Positions 998 to 46,925 are shown, numbered from the stretch's first letter. The stretch is 64,000 bases of DNA from Polytrichum commune (GCA_950295325.1 OX485809.1:25482001-25546000), one strand, 5' to 3'. Numbers and translations are program-made. The notes: generated from the letters alone by a model not told the origin.

Positions 998-1874
998 CAG
1001 GGTTGTCTATCGCGACGTCATGACGGGGTCGTGCCGTCATGACGCGTCGTGTCGGGTCGGACCCCTCCGTCACGACACAATAGGCTCCTCGTAGGGTCAA
1101 ACTAGGGTCAACCTAGTAGGGTGGGTAAAATACTTACCTTCTTGCCAAGGTGGCGTCCTATGTGGCAAAAAATGCCGACGTGGATGTGCATATTTCCCTT
1201 GGCATGTAAACCATTTTGCCATTGTGTTTACCATTTTGTTAAAATCAAAGTAATAAAATATTACTAAGGAGGGTGTAGGTCGGACGGGGGGAACGGGTGG
1301 GGAGCGCGGGGGAACATGGGGTCGGATGGGGGTGAGGGTCGGGCGGGGGGAAGGGTTGGACGGGGTGGGGAGGGGTCGGACGGGGGGGGGGATGGGTCGG
1401 ACGGGGGGGAGGACGGGGAGGGAACGCGGGGAGCGTGTGGGAATGTGGGGAGCGGGGGATGGGAGCGGGTTTAGGAGGTTTGGATAGGACGGGATGGATG
1501 GGAACGGGATTAGGGGAACGGGAGGGAGGACGGGGGGTCGGACGGGAGGGAACGTAGGGAACGGGTTAGGGAACATGTTAATGGGCTAAGGGAGCGGGGT
1601 TAAGGTACGGGGAACGGGGGCGGACGGGAGGGCGGACGGGCGCTAGTAATTTTATTCCCCACTTTACCTCTACTTTGCTGACATGTCATCACACGTGGAC
1701 ATCGTAACTCCTACGTGTCCGCAATGGGGTAATGTAAATACACAAAAAATTCGGTAAAATTCAAGTCCGGCAGGATAAAGACATCATCCGTCATAATGTC
1801 GTGACGGATACGTGTCGTGACGGCACGACATTATGTCGGGATTACCCTCCGTCACGACACAATAGACAACCCTG
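998..1874. mobile_element. Non-autonomous hAT element with G-rich core, copy 1
   Basis: An 877-bp element bounded by 13-bp inverted repeats CAGGGTTGTCTAT and flanked by a perfect 8-bp target-site duplication GATGCAAT (990-997 and 1875-1882). An 8-bp duplication and CAGGG termini are hallmarks of the hAT superfamily. Several CCGTCACGACA motifs lie near both ends, as expected of subterminal transposase-binding repeats. There is no transposase frame, so it needs an enzyme in trans. The interior is a strongly strand-asymmetric G-rich array (about 1263-1650). A second copy with the same ends lies at 9756-11059. This copy inserted inside the left terminal repeat of another element (1877-2472). Confidence 0.93.
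1263..1650 (+). repeat. G-rich minisatellite core of hAT copy 1
   Basis: Irregular tandem array of short GGACGGGG, GGGGAGCG and GGGAACGGG-like units, with nearly all G on the plus strand. Runs of three or more G separated by short loops recur throughout, a pattern compatible with G-quadruplex formation. The open frame on the minus strand across it is only low-complexity Pro/Arg and is not a gene. Confidence 0.9.
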
Positions 1875-1876
1875 GA

Positions 1877-2472
1877 TGCAATCATGGTAAAGTGGACAGC
1901 TCCTAATCCTTGCCTAATGTTAAGTGAAAGTGATTCAAAACTAGATAAATTTTTTGAATTTTGAGATGAAAAAAACTATAGACATTTAAAAACACATTGA
2001 TCTACAAAGCCAAGCAATTCATGATGACAAAAACAAATACAAGAAAAGTCTACATATTTTAGAAGACAATGCAAGTGGTGTGTAAGGAGGTGATATTGAA
2101 CAAGCAATTGCCTATAATTTGTTTAAAACTACATTAAATTGATGATTTTCTACACATTTTTGTGATGATGCCCTCAAGTGGATAATGAATTAATGGAATA
2201 TAAAAAAAAATTCCAACCTCAAATTATTTAAGGTCATGACAACTACATCCAAAACTAGATTCAATCATTTGCTTTTGAGCACCATTTCAATGATAAGTTT
2301 TGAAGATCTCAACTTGATATTCTACATTTGAGTATTTTACACAACAATAGAGGTCATTATGAAAAAAAATCAATTTAAACAACACTTTGCTAATACTTTT
2401 AGGCCTTTGACCCCAAAAAATATGGTTTTAATATACCAAAACACTATTTTGGTCCACTTTACCATGCTTGCA
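1877..2472. mobile_element. TIR element A, copy 1, split at its left end by the hAT insertion
   Basis: The left terminus 1877-1896 and right terminus 2453-2472 form an inverted repeat (TGCAAGCATGGTAAAGTGGA, one mismatch). The first bases of the left end also lie before the hAT element, because the hAT target-site duplication GATGCAAT falls in this terminus. Copies at 43564-44885 and 45273-45851 share the interior. It carries no recognisable transposase. Superfamily unknown; copy 2 shows a 5-bp target-site duplication. Confidence 0.8.
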
Positions 2473-2839
2473 CCCTATATCTAGTTGTATAATTTCAAAA
2501 TATATTATAAATGAGAGGTCCAAATTCAAAACTATACAAGATAAAGACACCATGATGTGAAATTAGATATATAGACTTAATACTTGTTGTCTTGGGAAGT
2601 CTTGCTTCTCAGACACTCATGAAAAGAAAAATGGAATTTTTTTTTATGAAGATTTTATATTGTCTAGTGTAATCAAGAGAGAATTTACATATTGTTTGAA
2701 ACATCTAGAGCAATAAACCTGGCTTAACTTAAAGGAAGGCTGATACATAAGTTTCTTGAAATGATTTGTAGACGAGGAATTTTCTGTATCATCTCTCAGC
2801 CACTAAACTAATGTAGTTCAGGGGTCTAGATTTTCTCCA
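2473..2839. other. AT-rich intergenic sequence
   Basis: No gene, terminal repeat or tandem structure is recognisable between element A and the next MITE. Confidence 0.5.
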
Positions 2840-3371
2840 CACCGTTTATGGCATTTGATGTCACATACACTATTTGCAAAGGCCCGCCTAAAGCACATGC
2901 CTATAGGTCTCAAACTGTCATGTCCACTAATTGCCAACATGATGTTGTTTGTCAACATAAGTAATTTTTTTAACTGAACCATTATTTACATCATGACATT
3001 GAGTGTAGCACATTGAGATACTGGAGAAGATGGTTTTCCGGTTTTAGTATGCGAAGGGAAGATATTATTGAGCATAATGATGGCGAGTGTCATGTGTTTA
3101 CATTTTAGTAAGTGAGAGGATAATACTCTTGAGCATACTAAGGCCAAGTGTCACTATTGTACACTTTGGTCAGCTTGCACACCATTGTGTAACATAGGCA
3201 TACACCTCATAACATTATTTAAACATACTCATGCCAAAACATTAGTAAGTGCATTCGAACACCAAGTGTCATGAGGTAACATTAATGATGGAGTTGTTGA
3301 TCATTAGTGTAACCTAGCATATGCCTCAAAATAAGGTAAGTGTCAATGCAACCCTAAAACCATAAACGGTG
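2840..3371. mobile_element. MITE family F, copy 1
   Basis: Ends are the inverted repeat CACCGTTTATGG; the right end is followed by TA. Internally a ~70-bp unit (GAAGATATTATTGAGCATA followed by AAGTGTCA) recurs. The same interior occurs in inverse orientation at 33438-34268. Other members sit at 51189-51404 and 56271-56505. The TA flanks of the clearest members suggest a Tc1/mariner (Stowaway-like) relationship. Confidence 0.78.
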
Positions 3372-3503
3372 TAGAGTGGGAAGTAGGCTTCCCATTCAGT
3401 TTCTAGGACCATCTTGGCCAAAGCCTACTTGTCTTTGTCTTCGATAACATGGATAGACCATACCCTAAAGAAAAAAGAGTGAAACCCCACGATCCAAGAA
3501 TAT

Positions 3504-4397
3504 CCTACATTATAGCCCGCAACTAATTAAGCTCCTAATTCCGGTAAATCTAAAGGAGCTAACGGTGTTGTGGAAAGAGCCTTCCTTCCTTCCCCACCTG
3601 AACTCCCATTCAAGGTGTTGAGGTGACATGGCCTAACTAGAAGTGAGGAATTAGCAAATTGTAGTGTAACGGTAACTTTATTCTACATTATAGCCCAAGA
3701 CTAATTCAGCTCCTGCTTCCGGTAAATCAAAAGAAGCTAATGGTGTTGTGGAAGGAGCCTTCCTTCTTTCCTCACTTGAACTCCCATTCAAGGTGTTGAG
3801 GTGACGTGACCCGACTAGAAGTGAGGAATTAGCAAATTGCAGTGTACTGACAACTTTGTTCTACATTATAGCCCGTGGCTAATTCAGCTTCTGGTAAATC
3901 AACATGAGCTAACAATGTAGTGGAGGAGACTAGCCTTCCTTCCTTCCTTCCTCACCTGAACTACCATTCAAGTTGGTGAGGTGACATGAGCTAACTAGAA
4001 GTGAGGAAATAGCAAATGGCAGTGTAACGGCAACTTTATTCTACATTATAGCCCGCGACTAATTCAGCTTCTGGTAAATCAACAAGAGCTAACAGTGTAG
4101 TGGAGGAGACTAGCCTTCCTTGCTTCCTTTCTTCCTCACCTGAATTGCCATTCAAGCTGGTGAGGTGACGTGAGTTGAATAGAAGTGAGGAATTAGCAAA
4201 TGGTAGTGTAACGGCAACTTTATTCTACATTATAACCTGCGACTAATTCAACTTCTAGTAAATCAACAGGAGCTAACAGTGTAGTGGCGGAGACTAGCCT
4301 TCCTTCCTTCCTCACCTGAACTGGCATTCAAGGTGGTGAGGTGACGTGAGGTGAATAGAAGTGAGGAATTAGCAAATGGCAGTGTAACGGCAACTTG
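3504..4397. repeat. Five-copy tandem repeat, unit about 180 bp
   Basis: Units begin with CTACATTATAGCCC at about 3504, 3683, 3861, 4041 and 4224, each 178-183 bp long. Each carries a CCTTCCTTCC stretch, a TTCAAGNTGGTGAGGTGA block and GAAGTGAGGAATTAGCAAAT. The last unit stops at CGGCAACTT near 4397. Units differ by substitutions and small indels. This is satellite-like in length, but the array here is short. Confidence 0.93.
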
Positions 4398-5060
4398 GGG
4401 CCAATTCCTTGAGAGAGCACGGGCACGCAACCTGGACCTCAACCAGGTAGCTAGCTGGCTAGCTGCTGACTGGGGGGCGGCAAAGGCTGAAAGCAAAGCA
4501 TAGTAGCCGCCTGCAGTAGCAGTAGCAGCAGCAGCAGCAGCGGTTTTGGGAGGCTGCACTAGTACTCATGCTGTGGTGTCCGTTCTCCACCACCCCCGAC
4601 CCTTTGGACGCGAGCGAGTGAGTGAGCGAGCGAGCCTGCCTCTGGCGTCTGTGCTCCAGCTTGGTCCACCTTACACAGGGGACACCTGCAGTAAAAAGTA
4701 GCACTTGGAAGCAGCAGCAGCAGCAGCAGCATTGGAACAAGCAGCTGTATAGTTAGTCTGAGTGCAGGTGTTGCCGTTCTTCACATGGACAACAACGGTC
4801 TTTTGGGCTGCCACATCGGACTGAGGACCACTTTAGAGTAGAGGCGGGTGGGCATCTGTTCTCCCGACCGATCGAGACCCCATCGGCACTCTCGAGGGTA
4901 CCGGAATTCCGGTCACGTTGGGACTGAGTTTCGATTAGGTTGGGATCAATAGTGCCATCATGACACATGTCCTGGTTTTGAATGCTACAGGGTGGAGGAA
5001 GGAGCGAGTATGGCAAACTCTAGACATTCGACGTGATAGGTTCAGGCTGACTTTTGGCTT
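4398..5060. other. GC-richer unique segment with GCA trinucleotide tracts
   Basis: GC content is clearly above the surroundings. Two (GCA)n tracts lie at about 4518-4540 and 4710-4731, with a GCGAGCGAGTGAGTGAGCGAG stretch near 4613. This composition resembles a promoter/5'-leader region, and no repeat-family match elsewhere in the window was seen. The frames across the tracts give poly-Ala, poly-Cys or poly-Gln and overlap on both strands. No convincing exon could be delimited. Confidence 0.4.
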
Positions 5061-5391
5061 TGGAAATTTACAAACTTTTTTATTTAAGGAATAAAGATAC
5101 TGAAGTTTTTTTGCGGTCCTCGTGATTTCTATCTTCCGACACAGGAGAAGTTTGCACTGCCTTATACTTCTCTAAATATAGCACAAAATCATTTAAGTGA
5201 TTGGTTATGGGTGCCTCTACTCTATCCTTGGGGCCAGATAGATGGGCGACCCAAACTCTAAAAACTTGGTCCAGTGGGATCGCTCAGTTTCACCAATTCT
5301 GACCCAAGGGCTTTATACTAGGGTTGGGCCCAAACACTCACACATCCTATGTGGTAATCACCCCCACAACCACACCTTACCCTATCAACAC

Positions 5392-5450
5392 ACAAACACA
5401 CACACACACACACACCAATCTTTGGTGGGGGGGGGGGGGAGGGGGGGGGG
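5392..5450 (+). repeat. (CA)n microsatellite followed by poly-G tract
   Basis: An (AC)n run is followed within about 15 bases by two G runs of 10 or more separated by a single A (about 5427-5449). It lies just outside the MITE at 5475-5894. Confidence 0.9.
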
Positions 5451-5474
5451 TGCAAGGGGTGTTCATGCTCATGT

Positions 5475-5894
5475 CACGGGGAGGTAACTCCATTGTCAAG
5501 TTGAACACCACGTGCGAACAAAGTTTGCTACCCCTATATTACATGCCATAGATAATTTTAAAATTTATGATATTTTCTCTACATATACATGACCATTGAT
5601 AGAATCTTTTGTATATATTTTTAGAAATTTTTAGTCATCTTCATTTTTTTAGTAATTTTTTAGTTCAATTCTACGTCATTCTAGTTAGAAACAATATTTT
5701 TATTTTAAAAAATCATCAAATTTAGTTACTATTTTTTACGATGTAAAAGGGACCGTGTATATCTACTCATGAAAAATAAAGTTTATAAAAGTTTGACCCA
5801 TTTTGGTGATGCTTTATGCAAAAAGTAGGATTTTTTACATGTAAAGTGTTCGCACGTGGTTGTTCAACTTTACAATGGAGTGGCCTCCATGTGG
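5475..5894. mobile_element. MITE family J, copy 1
   Basis: A long terminal inverted repeat (about 50 bp, with mismatches) built on CCACTCCATTGTAAAGTTGA and CCACGTGCGAAC bounds an AT-rich interior. A related, shorter copy is at 39976-40168. It has no coding capacity; the target-site duplication was not resolved. Confidence 0.8.
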
Positions 5895-6410
5895 CTCATG
5901 TGTCATCATCAACGATTTAAAGGACCGACCCACAACCACAACCACAACCACCAGGATCCGCACACAACAAATGTGAATGAAACAAAACGTAGGTGTGGTT
6001 GATTATTGTGGTTAACCACAACCACCTCTGTATTGTAAACAAACCTTCAGCTCCATCTAACCACAACCCTTGCACCCGGCCATTCCATTGCGCTTCTGTT
6101 GTAGCCATGGCTGCTGCTGAATGAGGCCCTTCGAGCATGTTGGCTTTCAGTCAATCAATCACTACACTCCACCCGAGTTGGTTTTCAACCAAAGCTCAAG
6201 ACAGTAGACTGTTCAAGTATTGTAATAACATTATGCATTCTCCAAGATCCAATTCCCAATTTCCTTGAATTAGGGTGCACATGAACGAGTGGTTTGAGCT
6301 GCCGTTTAATCAGACTCTCCTAATCCAACCAATCCGTTCACATGTTTTGCCGAAAAAACTACAGTAGTTGTTGAGAAGAATTTCAGAACTGGCTTGAATT
6401 CACAGCTTCA
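5895..6410. other. Intergenic sequence with ACCACA repeats
   Basis: Clustered CCACAA units occur at 5931-5953 and again at 6020-6070. No gene is recognised. The sequence downstream of the minus-strand exon candidate at 6468-6574 lies here and could hold its later exons. Confidence 0.4.
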
Positions 6411-6467
6411 TTAGAATCTTTCTCCTGACTGCCAGTGACTGCATTGAGATGACATGGATTACGTTAC

Positions 6468-6574
6468 CTTAGCGCAGGTCCAACGACAATCTGAGACTCG
6501 GACCACTGGAACACAACTTTGAAAGGATCAGGCCAGCAAGTGTGAACAAACTCAGGACCTTCGTACACCTGTAC
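6468..6574 (-). CDS. Orphan internal exon candidate, function unknown
   Basis: On the minus strand a 107-bp segment is flanked by an acceptor (CATCTGTAG, just above 6574) and a donor (AAG then GTAACG, just below 6468). It is open in phase 0 for 35 codons with amino-acid use typical of real protein: VQVYEGPEFVHTC near the start and FQWSESQIVVGPAL at the end. I do not recognise the domain. An acceptor (CAATGCAG) lies only 29 bases downstream, too short for a normal intron; a later acceptor at about 6393 (CAAGCCAG) keeps the frame open in the needed phase. No upstream exon was found. It may be part of a dispersed gene or a captured fragment. Confidence 0.35.
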
Positions 6575-6601
6575 CTACAGATGCAATTGGTGCACACGCT
6601 T

Positions 6602-6978
6602 TTACATATTATACCTAGTATGAATGCAGTTTAGTGCAGCGTACCGAAAGCAATTCTTGGATGCCTTTATAATAGTACACCACACTTTACTTGTCAAGTA
6701 GTGTGGATAACCAATTACCGTAGGCATCTTTTGCTCAATAATTAATTGGGTTTTGAGAAAAAGTCGGAGGCAGGCTAGGCCTTGGAAAAATTTATGAAAA
6801 AGTAGCAAATATTCATATGTATATTTAGTTGTTTAGGTACATAGCACATCCTACATACAAGTTCACGTATTATAACTCATTTTTCATTCATTCATGACGT
6901 TAAGTATGCGATGTTATTCTTGAGGGTTTACTAGGTTATTAAGTTGTCTTATAATTGTGCTAATTAGGGTTGTGAACC
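6602..6978. other. Intergenic sequence
   Basis: AT-rich, with no repeat family, promoter or gene recognised. Confidence 0.5.
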
Positions 6979-7036
6979 ATGTTTTGTGTCGCTTTGTGCT
7001 CATGTTTGGTAGAGGTTGTTGTTCGAGGATTTGCAA

Positions 7037-9110
7037 ACATGGCTAAGAGCCAGAGGCAAATAAGTCATATGTTTCATCTCATTGACAAGGATGAGAGATT
7101 ATTGAGCGTTGCAAATGATATTGAAGTTTTGAATGCCAAGTTAAAAGGAACCGCCTTGAAAAGATTGGAGAACCATCGGAAACGAGTGTGGGGCGTCCAA
7201 GGAAAGTTGTGGAGGCCACCCTTCTCAAGGTTGGAGAAGAAACGCCAACTAAGAAGTTAAAGGTTCGCGGTTCTTATCGGTTTACTCCTTTGCCTTGGGT
7301 TCCTATCGATGGTGCAGTTACGAGACATAGTAATCTTACTAATGCCTTGCATAATTTACAAGTAGCTTACAAGAAGCTAGAAAAACGTGATTCAATATAT
7401 GACGATTTATCATGAGGGACATTGTACTATTGGTCTACTCCAAGAGGAATTCTTAGAGAGAAGTACAAGGCATGTGTAAAAGAAAACACTTACTTCTCAA
7501 AGTGTCATTAACACTGTCATATTCTTACCAACTATCCTACGAGTCAAGAAGAGATCGTTACGGTATCTTCCTTATGGGCTCAACGTACTGTTGGTCAACC
7601 TTTATATGGCACAACCATGCAACCATTGATCCAAAGCATTGTGCAAAAGAGGATTCCCGAATTGCTTGGCCCGAGTTCAAAATTTGGTTTTGGGGTTTCT
7701 ATTCAATGGACAAGGAGTTTCATCAAAGACCCTTTGAATTGGAGTTAGGGTTTCTACAACAGTTGCAAGAAAGTACCCTGAGGATTGGAAGGATCAAGGG
7801 CTTATATATGGTGATTTAACGTGTAGGATACTTGCTGAAACTCCACAACATTCATCCTTCCATTCTGATTAATACATATCAAACAAGCATTCGTTTGGTG
7901 CCTACAGGAGATTCGCAAACTTGGAAGTTGAAGGGATCTAAACATATTTCAGTACATAAAATGGAAGATGAACGACAAATCCTAGTGGTAGTGTTTTTCT
8001 CTTCTATTGATGAGCTCTTACCTTTTCAAGTTGTCTTCACTGGAAGTACTGCATGATTTTTACCCCCCTTGAATATAGATCAAAGATTATGTGAATTTAA
8101 TGGTTGGCACCTTACAACAAATGCCACCCACCCATTGGTCCACTCTTCATACACGTAAGGATTTTGTTCAAAAATCCCGTCAACCCTACTGGGATTCACA
8201 CTTTTCAAGTTTAAACTTGCCCCAAGATCAAAAACTTTGTTTGGCTCATCGATTGTTGGAGCATACATAAGTTAGAGGAGTTTTTGAATTGGAATAAGGT
8301 AAATCATCCCGAGGTTTGTTTTATTTTTATTCCAGTGAGCTGCACCACCGTATTACAATAAATGGACATCATCATACAACGACCACTCAAACATGTATTC
8401 CTCTCGGGGGGTTCACTCCCTCTTATATTTTGCATACACGTGCGTTCGGGACCTATTTATTGGGGGGGGGGGGTTATTTACCTTGCAGAAAAGATTATAA
8501 GGTGATGGTATTTTACATGTAAAAAGCCTGAAAATATTATATGTGATGGTATTTGACATGTAAACATGTTTCATTATTTAAAAATCTCCTATTTTACATG
8601 TACATTTTTTCCAAAATTTATCTACAATGAATATATTGGACCCTATTTTTTATCGCACGTTGTTCTACGATTTTCGCCAATGAACCCCCCGAGGTATTCC
8701 TGCTACAATTTAATTCATGGAAAATGAATTCTATCTTAAATCAGATGGATGAGGGACAAACCATTAAGATGGATTTCAAAATATCAACAATCAAGCCTTT
8801 ATTGTGTGGGTGGTTGAATATAGCATGGCAACATGTGGCAAACAATCAAGATATGATCAAGAAAGGATGGGATAAGTAGGATTTTTACGTGCATTTGACT
8901 CTACATTTCATATTTAAGCAATGGAAGATAACATGAAGCCACCTCTATTTATGACAAGTTCAAATGAGCTTGAGAAAAATGAATGAAAGATTTAGAAGAA
9001 CATGATGACCCACACAAGTCAGTGATAGAGGTTATGGAGCAAATTTTAAACAATGTTGCATATATTCCATTCAAGCATTTGCACGCCAAAAACATAAAGA
9101 GCATTTGCTG
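7037..9110 (+). pseudogene. Decayed DDE-type transposase (pogo/DDE_1-like), MITE-disrupted
   Basis: The remains of one transposase can be followed in several frames. About 7037-7415 holds an N-terminal region with a GRPRK AT-hook-like motif. About 7415-7760 holds a helical region including RTVGQPLYGTT. About 7850-8060 matches the start of a DDE_1 core (LVPTGDSQTWKLKGS, then LLPFQVVFTG), but the first catalytic Asp appears replaced in NTYQTSIRLVP. About 8230-8350 keeps the second Asp in LIDCWSIHKLEEFLNW, followed by PVSCTTVLQ, a stop and MDIIIQRPLK. A MITE (8403-8693) interrupts the frame; the transposase resumes with LLQFNSW and runs on to about 9110. At least three frameshifts and several stops make it non-functional. 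The host element's terminal repeats were not found. Confidence 0.82.
8403..8693. mobile_element. MITE K inserted in the transposase pseudogene
   Basis: A 291-bp element with inverted termini CTCGGGGGGTTCA and flanking 8-bp duplication GTATTCCT (8395-8402 and 8694-8701). A 12-base G run lies at 8462-8473. Removing the element and one duplication rejoins the transposase frame exactly, which confirms the boundaries. An 8-bp duplication fits hAT-like elements, but the termini lack the usual CA start, so the superfamily is left open. Confidence 0.9.
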
Positions 9111-9115
9111 ACAAG

Positions 9116-9385
9116 AGAAGGTAGAATTTTGGCTAATAGATGAACTCATCCATCATCCATGACAACGTGTGTTCACTTATTCATAAGAGGTGTCATCCAA
9201 AAAGTTACCATAGTGACATTAAATACCATATGACATTAAATATCATCTTTAGTGTACTGAATTCACATTTGTTGATAAAATAAGAAATATATAGTAAATA
9301 GATATAGCATTACGTGATTTCAAATAGTAGGTCACACCAAATATCATATTTAGTGTAGTTAGTAAGATTACCACTAGGGATTTCA
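9116..9385. mobile_element. MITE family E remnant
   Basis: The block 9116-9240 matches 26240-26370 of the family E member in the HMA gene 2 intron (both contain GTTACCATAGTGACAT). The terminal palindrome AAATATCATATTTAGTGTAG lies near 9335-9360. The left terminus is missing and the right side is rearranged. Confidence 0.7.
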
Positions 9386-9747
9386 AGGTTTCAAGATTTC
9401 GAGGATTTCGAGGTTTCATAATAGTCTACTTCCATCTATAGTGCATAATAGTCTAGTTACGTGCCCATCAAGAGGATTGAGATATAGGAGCATTGAAGAG
9501 GCTTTTTGAAGCCTATGTGTGCTTCTGGTTTTTTTTTTTTGTAATAAAGTAGCCATCTCCTTTGGAGATATGACGTGGTTTTTTATGTGCACTCCTTTTT
9601 GGTGCGCTATGTTGTCACCCCCCCTTAATAATTGAAACTCCAATTAATATACACCCAATTGGACTTAGTAAATGGTGTTCTAACTTCATGTCATCAAACT
9701 TTAGCTATGTTTTTCAATTGTCTAAAGCTAATAAAATAAAAAAAGCT
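9386..9747. other. Intergenic sequence
   Basis: Near 9375-9415 short units (TTTCAAGG, TTTCGAGG) repeat several times. No gene recognised. Confidence 0.5.
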
Positions 9748-9755
9748 ATGTTCCA

Positions 9756-11059
9756 CAGGGTTGTCTATCGCGACGTCATGACGGTGTCGTGTCGTGACGG
9801 ACCCCTCCGTCACGACACAATAGGGTCCACGTAGGGTCAACATAGGGGGAACGGACTAGGGTGGGTAAAATACTTACCTTCTTGCCAAGGTGGCGTCCTA
9901 TGTGGCAGAAAACGCCGACGTGGTCGTGGATATGCCTAGCGCCAGGTAAATCATTTTGCCATTTTGTTTACCATTTTGTTAAAATCAAAGTAGTAAAAAA
10001 CGACTAAGGAGGGTGTGGGGCGGACGGGGGACGAGAGTGGGGCGGACGGGGGTGGGGGGGGGGGGGGAATGGAGCGGACGGGGTCGGGAACGGGGGCGGG
10101 AACGGAGCGGACGGGGGGGGGGAACAGAGCGGACGGAGTCGGGAACGGGAGCGGACGGGGGGGGGGGGGGGGAAGAAAAAAAAAAACTGGGGCGGACGGG
10201 GGAGCGGACGGAGGGGCGGACGGGGGGGAACGGGGCGCGGACGGGGGGGAACGGGGCACGGACGGGGGGGAACGGGGCGCGGACGGGGGGGAACGGGGCG
10301 GACGGGGTTGGGAACGGGGCGGACGGGGGGGAACGGGAGCGGACGGAGGGGGGGGAATTTTTTTTTTAAAAAAATGGGGCGGACGGGGAAGGGAAAAAAA
10401 AAAAAAAAAAAAAACTGGGGCGGACGGGGGGGAACGGGGGGGAACGGGGCGGAACGGGGCGGAACGGGGCGGAACGGGGCGGAACGGGGCGGACGGAGGG
10501 GGGGGAATTTTTTTTTAAAAAAAATGGGGCGGATGGGGGAGCAGACGGAGGGGCGGACGGGGGAGCGGACGGAGGGGCGGACGGGGGGGAACGGGGCGCG
10601 GACGGGGGGGAACGGGGCGGACGGGGTTGGGAACGGGGCGGACGGGGTCGGGAACGGGGGCGGACGGGGGGGAACGGGGGGGAACGGGAGCGGACGGAGG
10701 GGGGAGCGGACGGGGGAGCGGACGGGGGAGCGGACGGAGGGGCGGACGGGGGGGAACGGGGCGCGGACGGGGGGGGGAACGGAGCGGACGGGGTTGGGAA
10801 CAGGGGCGGACGGGGGGGCGGACGGGCTCTAGTAAATTTTTCCCCACTTTACCTTTACTTTGCTGACATGTTATCACACGTGGACATTGTAAATCCTACG
10901 TGTCTGAATTGGGTTAATGTAATTACACAAAAAAATCGGTAAAATTCAAGTCCGTCAGGATAAAGACAGCATCCGGCATAATGTCGTGACGGATACGTGT
11001 CGTGACGGCACGACATTATGCCGGGATTACCCTCCGTCACGACACAATAGACAACCCTG
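9756..11059. mobile_element. Non-autonomous hAT element with G-rich core, copy 2
   Basis: Same 13-bp termini CAGGGTTGTCTAT as the 998-1874 copy, flanked by a perfect 8-bp duplication ATGTTCCA (9748-9755 and 11060-11067). The outer blocks (9756-10008 and 10838-11059) align closely with copy 1, but the G-rich core is about twice as long, giving 1304 bp in total. No transposase is present. The shared termini, shared subterminal CCGTCACGACA motifs and different duplications prove two independent transpositions. Confidence 0.95.
10008..10830 (+). repeat. Expanded G-rich minisatellite core of hAT copy 2
   Basis: About 820 bp made of GGCGGACGGGG, GGGGGGAACGGGGC and GGAGCGGACGGAG variants, interspersed with A-runs (about 10167-10180 and 10394-10414). 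A higher-order unit ending in a T-run/A-run then ATGGGGCGGA occurs twice (about 10345-10392 and 10490-10540). G dominates the plus strand almost completely. Several long overlapping open frames of Gly/Arg/Asp repeats are by-products of this composition. Confidence 0.93.
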
Positions 11060-11067
11060 ATGTTCCA

Positions 11068-38493: not shown

Positions 38494-39511
38494 CACCCTA
38501 ACCTTGATAATGTCACACCCTCCGTTTCACCAAAAAGTGTGATATAAACAAGGTGTGACATACTTGATAATGTCACATTTTGTGCATAATGTGATATTAT
38601 CAAAAAAAATCAAAATATAATTACAATTTTTTTTTAAATTAACAAATACGAGACTTCAATGTTTTTGAATGTAAAATCTAATTCAAAATTGTGAATAACA
38701 ACAAGACCTTGCACAATATATGGTGGATCAACATAAATTCAAGCTTGTGGATCGGACCACTATTTCCAAGATTCTTCGTTCAAAAGAGAAGTGGATGAAC
38801 ATGGATACATGTGTGCGTGAAGGCAATGTACGACGCGCTCGAGTTGGAAAATGGCCTCAGCTTGAAAAAGCTTTGGTTTTATGGTTTGGACAGGTCAGAG
38901 CACGGAGGGGAGTAGTAACTGATGATGTCATTATGCAAAAGGCTAAGGAATTGAGGGATTCATTTGGCATATTTGATACCGAGTTCAAGCTTTCTCATGG
39001 GTGGTTGCAAAATTTCAAAACTCGACATGGAATAAAGTGTTATTATCTGCATGGAGAAAGTGGAGATGCAGATGGAGTTGGAGTTGCATTGGCCATGGCA
39101 AAGATCCGTGTGTTTGTGAACTTCCACCTTTGGCCTCAACTTACAGAAAACTGCGAGTATGTAGAATTGAGCATTTGGACTCCGAAACACATACCAAATT
39201 TGAAATTACACAAGGCATCCCACTATGCCGAAAGCATTGAATGAGAGCACATTCAATGACCCCCAATATGCTTTGCTTAAGCCCATCCTCACCCATGAAC
39301 AATAATATCGAACCCATGCCCACCCATACAATCCATCCATACTTGATATTATCACATTTACACTACGGATTTTGAAAAAAAATAGTGACATTATCAAGGG
39401 TGATAGGGATAATAACGAGGGAGTTTTACACTATGAAAATCGGTTTCAAACTTTTAGGTGACAATATCAAGGTGTTCTATTAACAAGGGTGACATTATCA
39501 AGGTTAGACTG
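38494..39511. mobile_element. Pogo-like element H, copy 2, with transposase fragment
   Basis: Ends CACCCTAACCTTGATAATGT and, reversed, CAGTCTAACCTTGATAATGT, flanked by TA. The terminal 150 bp on each side match the MITE at 21599-22203. It is longer because it keeps part of a transposase gene (38720-39250). The catalytic part is missing, so it is an internally deleted derivative. Confidence 0.92.
38720..39244 (+). pseudogene. Pogo/Tigger transposase N-terminal fragment (CENP-B-type HTH)
   Basis: The frame begins MVDQHKFKLVDRTTISKILRS, the helix-turn-helix that reads terminal DNA in pogo/Tigger transposases. It continues into the second (CENP-B-like) helix-turn-helix: KALVLWFGQVRARRG, KAKELRDSFG and GWLQNFKTRHGIK, about residues 45-125. 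After about residue 130 the similarity ends, and the frame runs out at residue 174 without any DDE catalytic core. Typical family members exceed 400 residues. The fragment might still bind the element ends; the shared TIRs with the MITE at 21599 indicate one family. Confidence 0.87.
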
Positions 39512-45851: not shown

Positions 45852-46925
45852 AAATGCCTAGGTGTGTATATGGTTCATTTTGTGTGAGGGTTGGGAAGGT
45901 TTTGGTCTTGTATGTCATGTTTTGTGATTGGATGTATGCTTTGAAGGGGTTGGGTTTGAGTTTCGATTTATTGGGGCATCCTGTGATGGCACATTTTGAG
46001 AGGTTGAGGTTCAAATTAGATATTAGATACCTGGAGGTTGCACATGTGATTAAAACTAGGAATCATGTGTGTTCGCATCTGTTACTAACCCTATCCCCAA
46101 CTAGCCTCAAACAAAAAATTAAAATTCTAAACGCAGTCATAAAACCCCGCATCGCCTACGCATACTACGCGTTACCATTCTCCAAACCTGATATTATGAA
46201 ATTAGACAAATTAGTCAATAAACTAACCAAAGAAATTTGCAACATACCCAAAAGTATCGCTAACATCCTCACACACCTTCCCCATGAAGTTTTCAACATA
46301 AGCATAACCTCCCTCCTACCAGACTACATACACTGCATAGGCCAACGGCTACTACAAGCCCCCAACGACCCAAGATAACTAGGTAATTTATACCAAGGCC
46401 TACCCAAATACATATCCACTAAATATGGGGGCTAACTACACCTCCCTAAAACTCAAACAACAAGCATGCACAAGGTCACCCATAGCCAAAACTCTCTTCT
46501 TGCTAAAAAGAGAATATGAGAACCACGTCCCCACCGCAAACCGCACATTCCCCCTCAAAAAAACCCCACTAGAACAAGCGTGGATATCCAACCCAACATA
46601 CACCAACCTCATCAACAACTCCAAAACAAAATCCCAAGAATACCTAAACAAACTATACACACACAGAATCACAACACTAACGCAAATTCAAAATAAAGAC
46701 ACTATGGCCATACTTACCCTTGAGGAATTTCATACCATCTACAAACACACATTCAAAACCATCAAAGAAGCTCTACAACAAGCTACAACAATATTTTCTA
46801 TCACACCAACACCCACACTCCATATGAACCACCCCCAACCATCAACACAACCACCCACAAACACTATACATGCCCCTAATTCCCCCACAACCCACCATAG
46901 GGCGAGCAATCCACATAATAATCAA
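45851..46925 (+). pseudogene. LINE remnant L2: reverse-transcriptase end with inverted 5' piece
   Basis: From about 46075 the plus strand encodes the thumb region that follows the reverse-transcriptase palm: QKIKILNAVIKPRIAYAYYA, then KLDKLVNKLTKEICNIPKS. A linker follows to about 46925. The preceding 45856-46070 is coding on the minus strand instead: NLNLSKCAITGCP and NEPYTHLG, the part of the reverse transcriptase normally just upstream of the thumb. Inversion of the 5' portion of a LINE is the signature of twin priming during insertion. The palm active site itself is absent. Stops and frameshifts mark it as inactive. Confidence 0.8.

Follow-up and report, generated by a model that had tools for sequence, protein, structure and literature searches.

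Two short elements in a 64,000-nucleotide stretch of Polytrichum commune DNA (GCA_950295325.1 OX485809.1:25482001-25546000, hereafter the window) raise the question of how hAT transposons come to carry long G-rich cores. The reading favored here, with a probability of roughly 0.86, is that both arose by internal deletion from giant three-gene hAT elements, a young family present in about 100 copies. Their parts, in window coordinates, are the following:

990-997, no strand: TSD GATGCAAT left of copy 1 (from sequence)
998-1252, plus strand: left arm of copy 1 (subfamily A), with 13-bp TIR, subterminal repeats and a palindrome; 255 bp, aligned across A copies
1253-1653, plus strand: G-rich core of copy 1, the giant-A left and right arrays fused (alignment to giant-A ends)
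1654-1874, plus strand: right arm of copy 1 with TIR; 221 bp, 99-100% identical in many copies
1875-1882, no strand: TSD GATGCAAT right of copy 1 (from sequence)
9748-9755, no strand: TSD ATGTTCCA left of copy 2 (from sequence)
9756-9992, plus strand: left arm of copy 2 (subfamily B) with TIR; 237 bp, matching the left end of the C5 giant
9993-10838, plus strand: G-rich core of copy 2 with interspersed A/T tracts, the giant-B left and right arrays fused, plus ~190 bp matching both less well (alignment)
10839-11059, plus strand: right arm of copy 2 with TIR; 221 bp
11060-11067, no strand: TSD ATGTTCCA right of copy 2 (from sequence)

Copy 1 (998-1874, 877 bp) and copy 2 (9756-11059, 1304 bp) share a perfect 13-bp TIR (CAGGGTTGTCTAT/ATAGACAACCCTG), and both ends of each show subterminal GTCGTGACGG-like motifs together with the block CCCTCCGTCACGACACAATAG. 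Their flanking 8-bp duplications are perfect and differ from one another (GATGCAAT at 990-997 and 1875-1882 for copy 1, ATGTTCCA at 9748-9755 and 11060-11067 for copy 2), so that the initial annotation, which had described two non-autonomous hAT copies with common termini and with perfect, distinct duplications, is borne out in these respects. By their arms, copy 1 belongs to subfamily A and copy 2 to subfamily B. Being non-coding and having both ends in common with a coding element, the small elements are classed as MITEs or deletion derivatives. Between the two copies, and outside both, a tandem repeat with units of 178-184 bp, present five times, occupies positions 3501-4396; elsewhere in the window, two 174-aa open frames (38720-39244 and 45854-46378) resemble by eye a helix-turn-helix of pogo/Tigger type and the terminal part of a LINE reverse transcriptase. 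Scanning the window for tRNAs and Rfam families gave no matches.

The cores contain 60% G and 10-14% C over ~369 bp in copy 1 and ~819 bp in copy 2, with G runs in the window reaching 16. They hold 10 and 13 non-overlapping G4 motifs, respectively, on the plus strand and none on the minus strand, with G4Hunter scores of 1.8-1.9, a predicted quadruplex propensity. Base-shuffled controls gave 4.6 and 10.4 motifs, indicating that most of this signal follows from base composition and that the real counts are only moderately above those of the shuffles. The array units (GGGCGGACGGGG) are degenerate and form no clean minisatellite, TRF returning several competing periods, mostly with 60-82% matches. 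The former description of the cores as nearly pure plus-strand G arrays stands as to strand and G-richness. The array of copy 2 is interrupted by long A and T/A tracts (AATTTTTTTTTTAAAAAAA) at 10173-10186, 10356-10375, 10394-10414 and 10506-10524; that of copy 1 shows none.

The 408-Mb genome has seven large chromosomes and about ten loci for LOB-domain genes, a family that marks it as a land plant and whose small number here suggests a non-seed one. Searching it retrieved 445 exact copies of the right terminus (22-mer), or 592 when up to three mismatches were allowed, and 305 exact copies of the left terminus (20-mer), while reversed-pattern controls gave 0 matches; these counts are far beyond chance. 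Among 39 complete small copies that were read, a sample obtained by similarity searches with the arms of copy 1 and hence biased to young subfamily-A copies, 33 have an exact 8-bp TSD and four more have one with a single mismatch. The core is G-rich on the same element strand in all 38 small copies in which it could be delimited, as expected from the previous proposal of hAT elements with a G-rich core, and no delimitable core without G-richness appeared. The 26 A copies with standard arms diverge from the arm consensus by 0.79% on average, a value so low that it points to a recent burst of this subfamily.

The same termini also bound elements of 12-18 kb, in about 100 copies. Exact pairing of left and right termini on chromosome 1 yielded a bimodal size distribution, in which 24 elements measure 0.74-2.7 kb and 17 measure 11.6-18.4 kb, with no element between 3 and 9 kb, the 11.6-kb pair and some of the long spans sharing a terminus with another pair; four longer spans are probably nested. 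The analysis covered the sequence of 93 loci, further copies being placed by coordinates; a single giant, on C5, was read nearly whole (~770 bp missing), the others being known through their end sequences and hit coordinates. An exact 8-bp TSD is found in three giants: C5:38735302-38747546 (12,245 bp, family termini, ATTGTTGT on both sides, or ACAACAAT in element orientation), C3:513184-526974 (family ends, ATGGGAAT, subfamily A) and C7:11309222-11345538 (family ends, CCTCCACG). Outside the window, at C1:21.835-21.972 Mb (G000), an apparent tandem segmental triplication comprises three near-identical giants of 15.6-15.8 kb, each having a TGA in its transposase frame and a 0.82-kb family element of its own, convergently oriented at a distance of 2.4 kb.

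Giants code for a transposase, and these coding 12-18 kb elements with the same ends are candidates for the autonomous relative whose search had been recommended. In the C5 giant this protein has 1084 aa, carries DUF659 (2.9e-35) and Dimer_Tnp_hAT (1.1e-10) domains, both over the Pfam cut-off, and is encoded inward from the right end. The gene lies within terminus pairs and, in most giants having it, at a distance of 0.8-1.5 kb from the right terminus; its 54 full-length copies are 95-98% identical to the C5 protein, most of them with a full open frame. It is a lower-scoring DUF659-type hAT, located via terminus pairing; the 30 loci with the best hAT dimerization domains were discarded as its source because none carries the family ends. 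On the left side of the C5 giant, a 734-aa frame directed inward encodes a kinase-like protein, with HNDLNPNN and DWD motifs by reading and a Pkinase match (1.2e-5) of 25.3 bits against a Pfam cut-off of 31.7. The third gene, also rightward, encodes a coiled-coil protein with a RING-like end, interrupted in C5 by a stop in the RING part, with frames of up to 788 aa in other copies; its zf-RING_2 match (3.5e-5, 24.4 bits against a cut-off of 27.3) was obtained with one broken copy read through, with X at the stop. An open frame of 256 aa beside the transposase (L091 2-775), considered as an extra giant gene, was rejected because its position is beyond the right terminus and TSD; the insertion point of the C5 giant is ~230 bp downstream of this frame, which has no Pfam match and probably belongs to another mobile or repeated gene.

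According to joins made from hit coordinates, kinase-like, RING-like and transposase genes all occur within 16 kb at 73 of the 104 transposase loci. Kinase-like and RING-like genes run rightward and the transposase leftward at 37 of them, the kinase-like gene is instead leftward at 27, and at nine the order is RING-like (rightward), transposase (leftward) and kinase-like (leftward), the subfamily-A order also present at C3:513184-526974. A typical hAT has one gene and measures about 3-5 kb. Judged on sequence features, the family is hAT by its 8-bp TSD, its short 13-bp TIR and a transposase with DUF659 and Dimer_Tnp_hAT between the same ends, and atypical by its size (12-18 kb) and its three genes. 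A giant hAT with several genes is the principal novelty here: members of a superfamily usually seen as small one-gene transposons, having recently amplified at such a size and with a conserved set of three genes, would widen the scope of hAT elements.

The arrays of the giants account for the cores of the small copies. Each gene of the giants read has, immediately on its upstream side, a G/C-skewed array that ends at or near a TATA box. In C5, the left array, G-rich and then C-rich, precedes the kinase-like gene and occupies ~250-1070 bp counted from the left end; the middle one precedes the RING-like gene; and the right one, which precedes the transposase, occupies ~235-640 bp counted from the right end. 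The left array ends exactly at TATATAAG in four subfamily-A giants. The arrays adjoining the two arms have the same orientation, and their joining consequently gives an all-G core. Positions 1-538 of copy 1 align to positions 1-562 of the left end of giant A, reaching the start of the TATA box, and 375-877 to the giant-A right end; positions 1-584 and 771-1304 of copy 2 align to giant-B left and right ends, respectively, and the ~190 bp in the middle of its core match neither end closely. The junction GGGAGGACGGGG/GGTCGGACGG, at which the final bases of the left array ahead of the TATA box run into the right array, recurs in 17 of 35 small A copies, suggesting one founder deletion or a preferred junction. 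All 15 matches to a 24-bp array motif on chromosome 1 fall inside family elements: for 14 of them an exact terminus is no more than 0.6 kb away, and the remaining one adjoins the RING-like gene in a giant with an inexact left terminus. Since the cores are two fused arrays from the ends of a giant, the idea that the element was built around a minisatellite is not supported; the G-rich DNA corresponds to the subterminal arrays on the promoter side of a three-gene hAT of 12-18 kb.

By analogy with the origin of Ds from Ac (PMC3260210), the coding interior, roughly 10-12 kb, would have been lost by pairing between repeat units, with interrupted gap repair after excision, replication slippage and single-strand annealing as candidate routes. 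Such a deletion would join the two end arrays, and the resulting small copies would then amplify, presumably moved in trans by the transposase of the giants through recognition of the shared ends. In the giants themselves, the arrays may act as promoter-side and possibly transposase-binding DNA, and their length would change afterwards, as in other G-rich minisatellites. The opposite direction, in which a small element gained genes, appears less likely given that a single fusion point is common to half of the A cores that were read. A high-copy, MITE-like family that scatters hypervariable G-rich arrays would thus arise by a simple route, deletion between end arrays facing the same way.

A different origin was implied by the initial annotation, in which an unrelated G-rich repeat was taken up by a MITE, expanded there and aids its spread through quadruplexes. 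The G-rich core of every measurable copy, the confinement of G4 motifs to one strand and the hypervariable core length would all agree with it; nevertheless, the arrays are already upstream of each gene in coding giants, the small cores consist of both end arrays, and the excess of G4 motifs over shuffles is only moderate, leaving this origin very improbable. The core-length variability to which it appeals, and which had been noticed from the two window copies, holds on tabulation: in the assembly, cores of subfamily-A copies measure 131-609 bp (sd 105 bp), with 25 of 26 distinct, and six pairs of A copies whose arms differ at no more than 2 of 476 sites all differ in core length, by a median of 64 bp. 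Pairwise comparison of A copies gave a difference of 1.5% in the arms; in the cores it was 6.7% over aligned columns, with 7.5 indel events per pair in addition. Were these differences mostly assembly or sequencing errors in G runs, the arrays would truly be far more uniform; runs of up to 16 G, as in the window, are error-prone on most platforms, and part of the short-run variation may arise in assembly. Lengths differing by whole units, even between copies with nearly identical arms, are nonetheless more than run-length error alone could produce, which makes a mainly artefactual origin very unlikely; array-length variation is real in the assembly.

Under the preferred reading of deletion from coding giants, the question arises of why a transposon needs kinase-like and RING-like proteins. 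They may be passengers, captured once from the host (pack-type) and forming no working part of the transposon, which would suit their weak domain scores, the many gene copies that are broken or have stops, and a kinase gene whose position and strand vary between subfamilies. Such neutrality is harder to reconcile with the presence of an identical set of three genes in two subfamilies whose proteins differ by ~10% (transposase), ~24% (kinase-like) and ~37% (RING-like), with the long open frames persisting in many copies, and with dN/dS values of 0.46-0.61 in the A-B comparison of the accessory genes, modest evidence for purifying selection on them. The passenger explanation has a fair but less than even probability. 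Less probable still, and offered as a tentative idea, is that the lineage fixed a kinase-like plus RING/E3-like module controlling its own transposition or countering host silencing; in it, the G arrays would drive all three genes as promoters and would form ends able to bind the transposase and to adopt quadruplexes, with array length tuning activity.

Maize Ac is an autonomous hAT of 4.6 kb with one gene, and its internal-deletion, non-autonomous derivatives (Ds-del/Ds2) keep both ends, deletion derivatives sharing ~200 bp of each (PMC3260210). The moss elements resemble this system in their 8-bp TSD, short TIRs, repeated subterminal motifs and deletion derivatives retaining both ends (PMC3260210), and differ from it in the 12-18 kb and three genes of the giants and in derivatives that keep long G-rich arrays of copy-specific length. 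Tandem repeats inside DNA transposons, varying in number by copy, are shared with class II elements such as the (GTCY)n MITEs of Lepidoptera, the miDNA4 MITE of Xenopus and Atenspm ENSAT1, derived from an En/Spm-like 5' UTR (PMC9659126), and with Tetris of Drosophila virilis (PMC4079207); these belong to other superfamilies and carry other repeats, whereas the present array is strongly G-rich and originates at the promoter-side ends of a hAT with protein-coding genes. Sizes far above the usual and genes beyond the transposase are found as well in Starships, Teratorn and ToxhAT (PMC11623301, PMC10175614, PMC12506042). However, Starships use tyrosine recombinases and Teratorn a piggyBac-type transposase, unlike the hAT transposase of the present elements, and ToxhAT (14 kb), reassigned away from hAT, was rejected as a giant-hAT precedent because its TSD is the 2-bp TA (PMC12506042) and not 8 bp. 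Within the open literature searched, whose coverage is incomplete, no description of a giant multi-gene hAT of this kind was found, nor any paper joining hAT with minisatellites or MITEs, hAT with a protein kinase domain, or Spm with GC-rich control regions, and searches for hAT capture of a kinase gene returned only unrelated papers.

As regards the arrays, the reports on CEB1 describe a G-rich minisatellite rendered unstable through G4 in yeast (PMC2673046, PMC5491262). The present arrays are alike in being G-rich, tandem, quadruplex-prone in sequence and unstable in length, and unlike in that CEB1 stays at one human locus, its behavior having been studied in yeast, while they travel in a transposon and their quadruplexes are predicted from sequence; a comparable G4-driven instability may operate in them. 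Hundreds of near-identical insertions offer material for measuring array instability. Other insertions have also entered these arrays: a subfamily-B giant end is inserted inside an A small-element array (L003), and other short inserts sit within the G arrays of further small elements (L010/L062 and L015).
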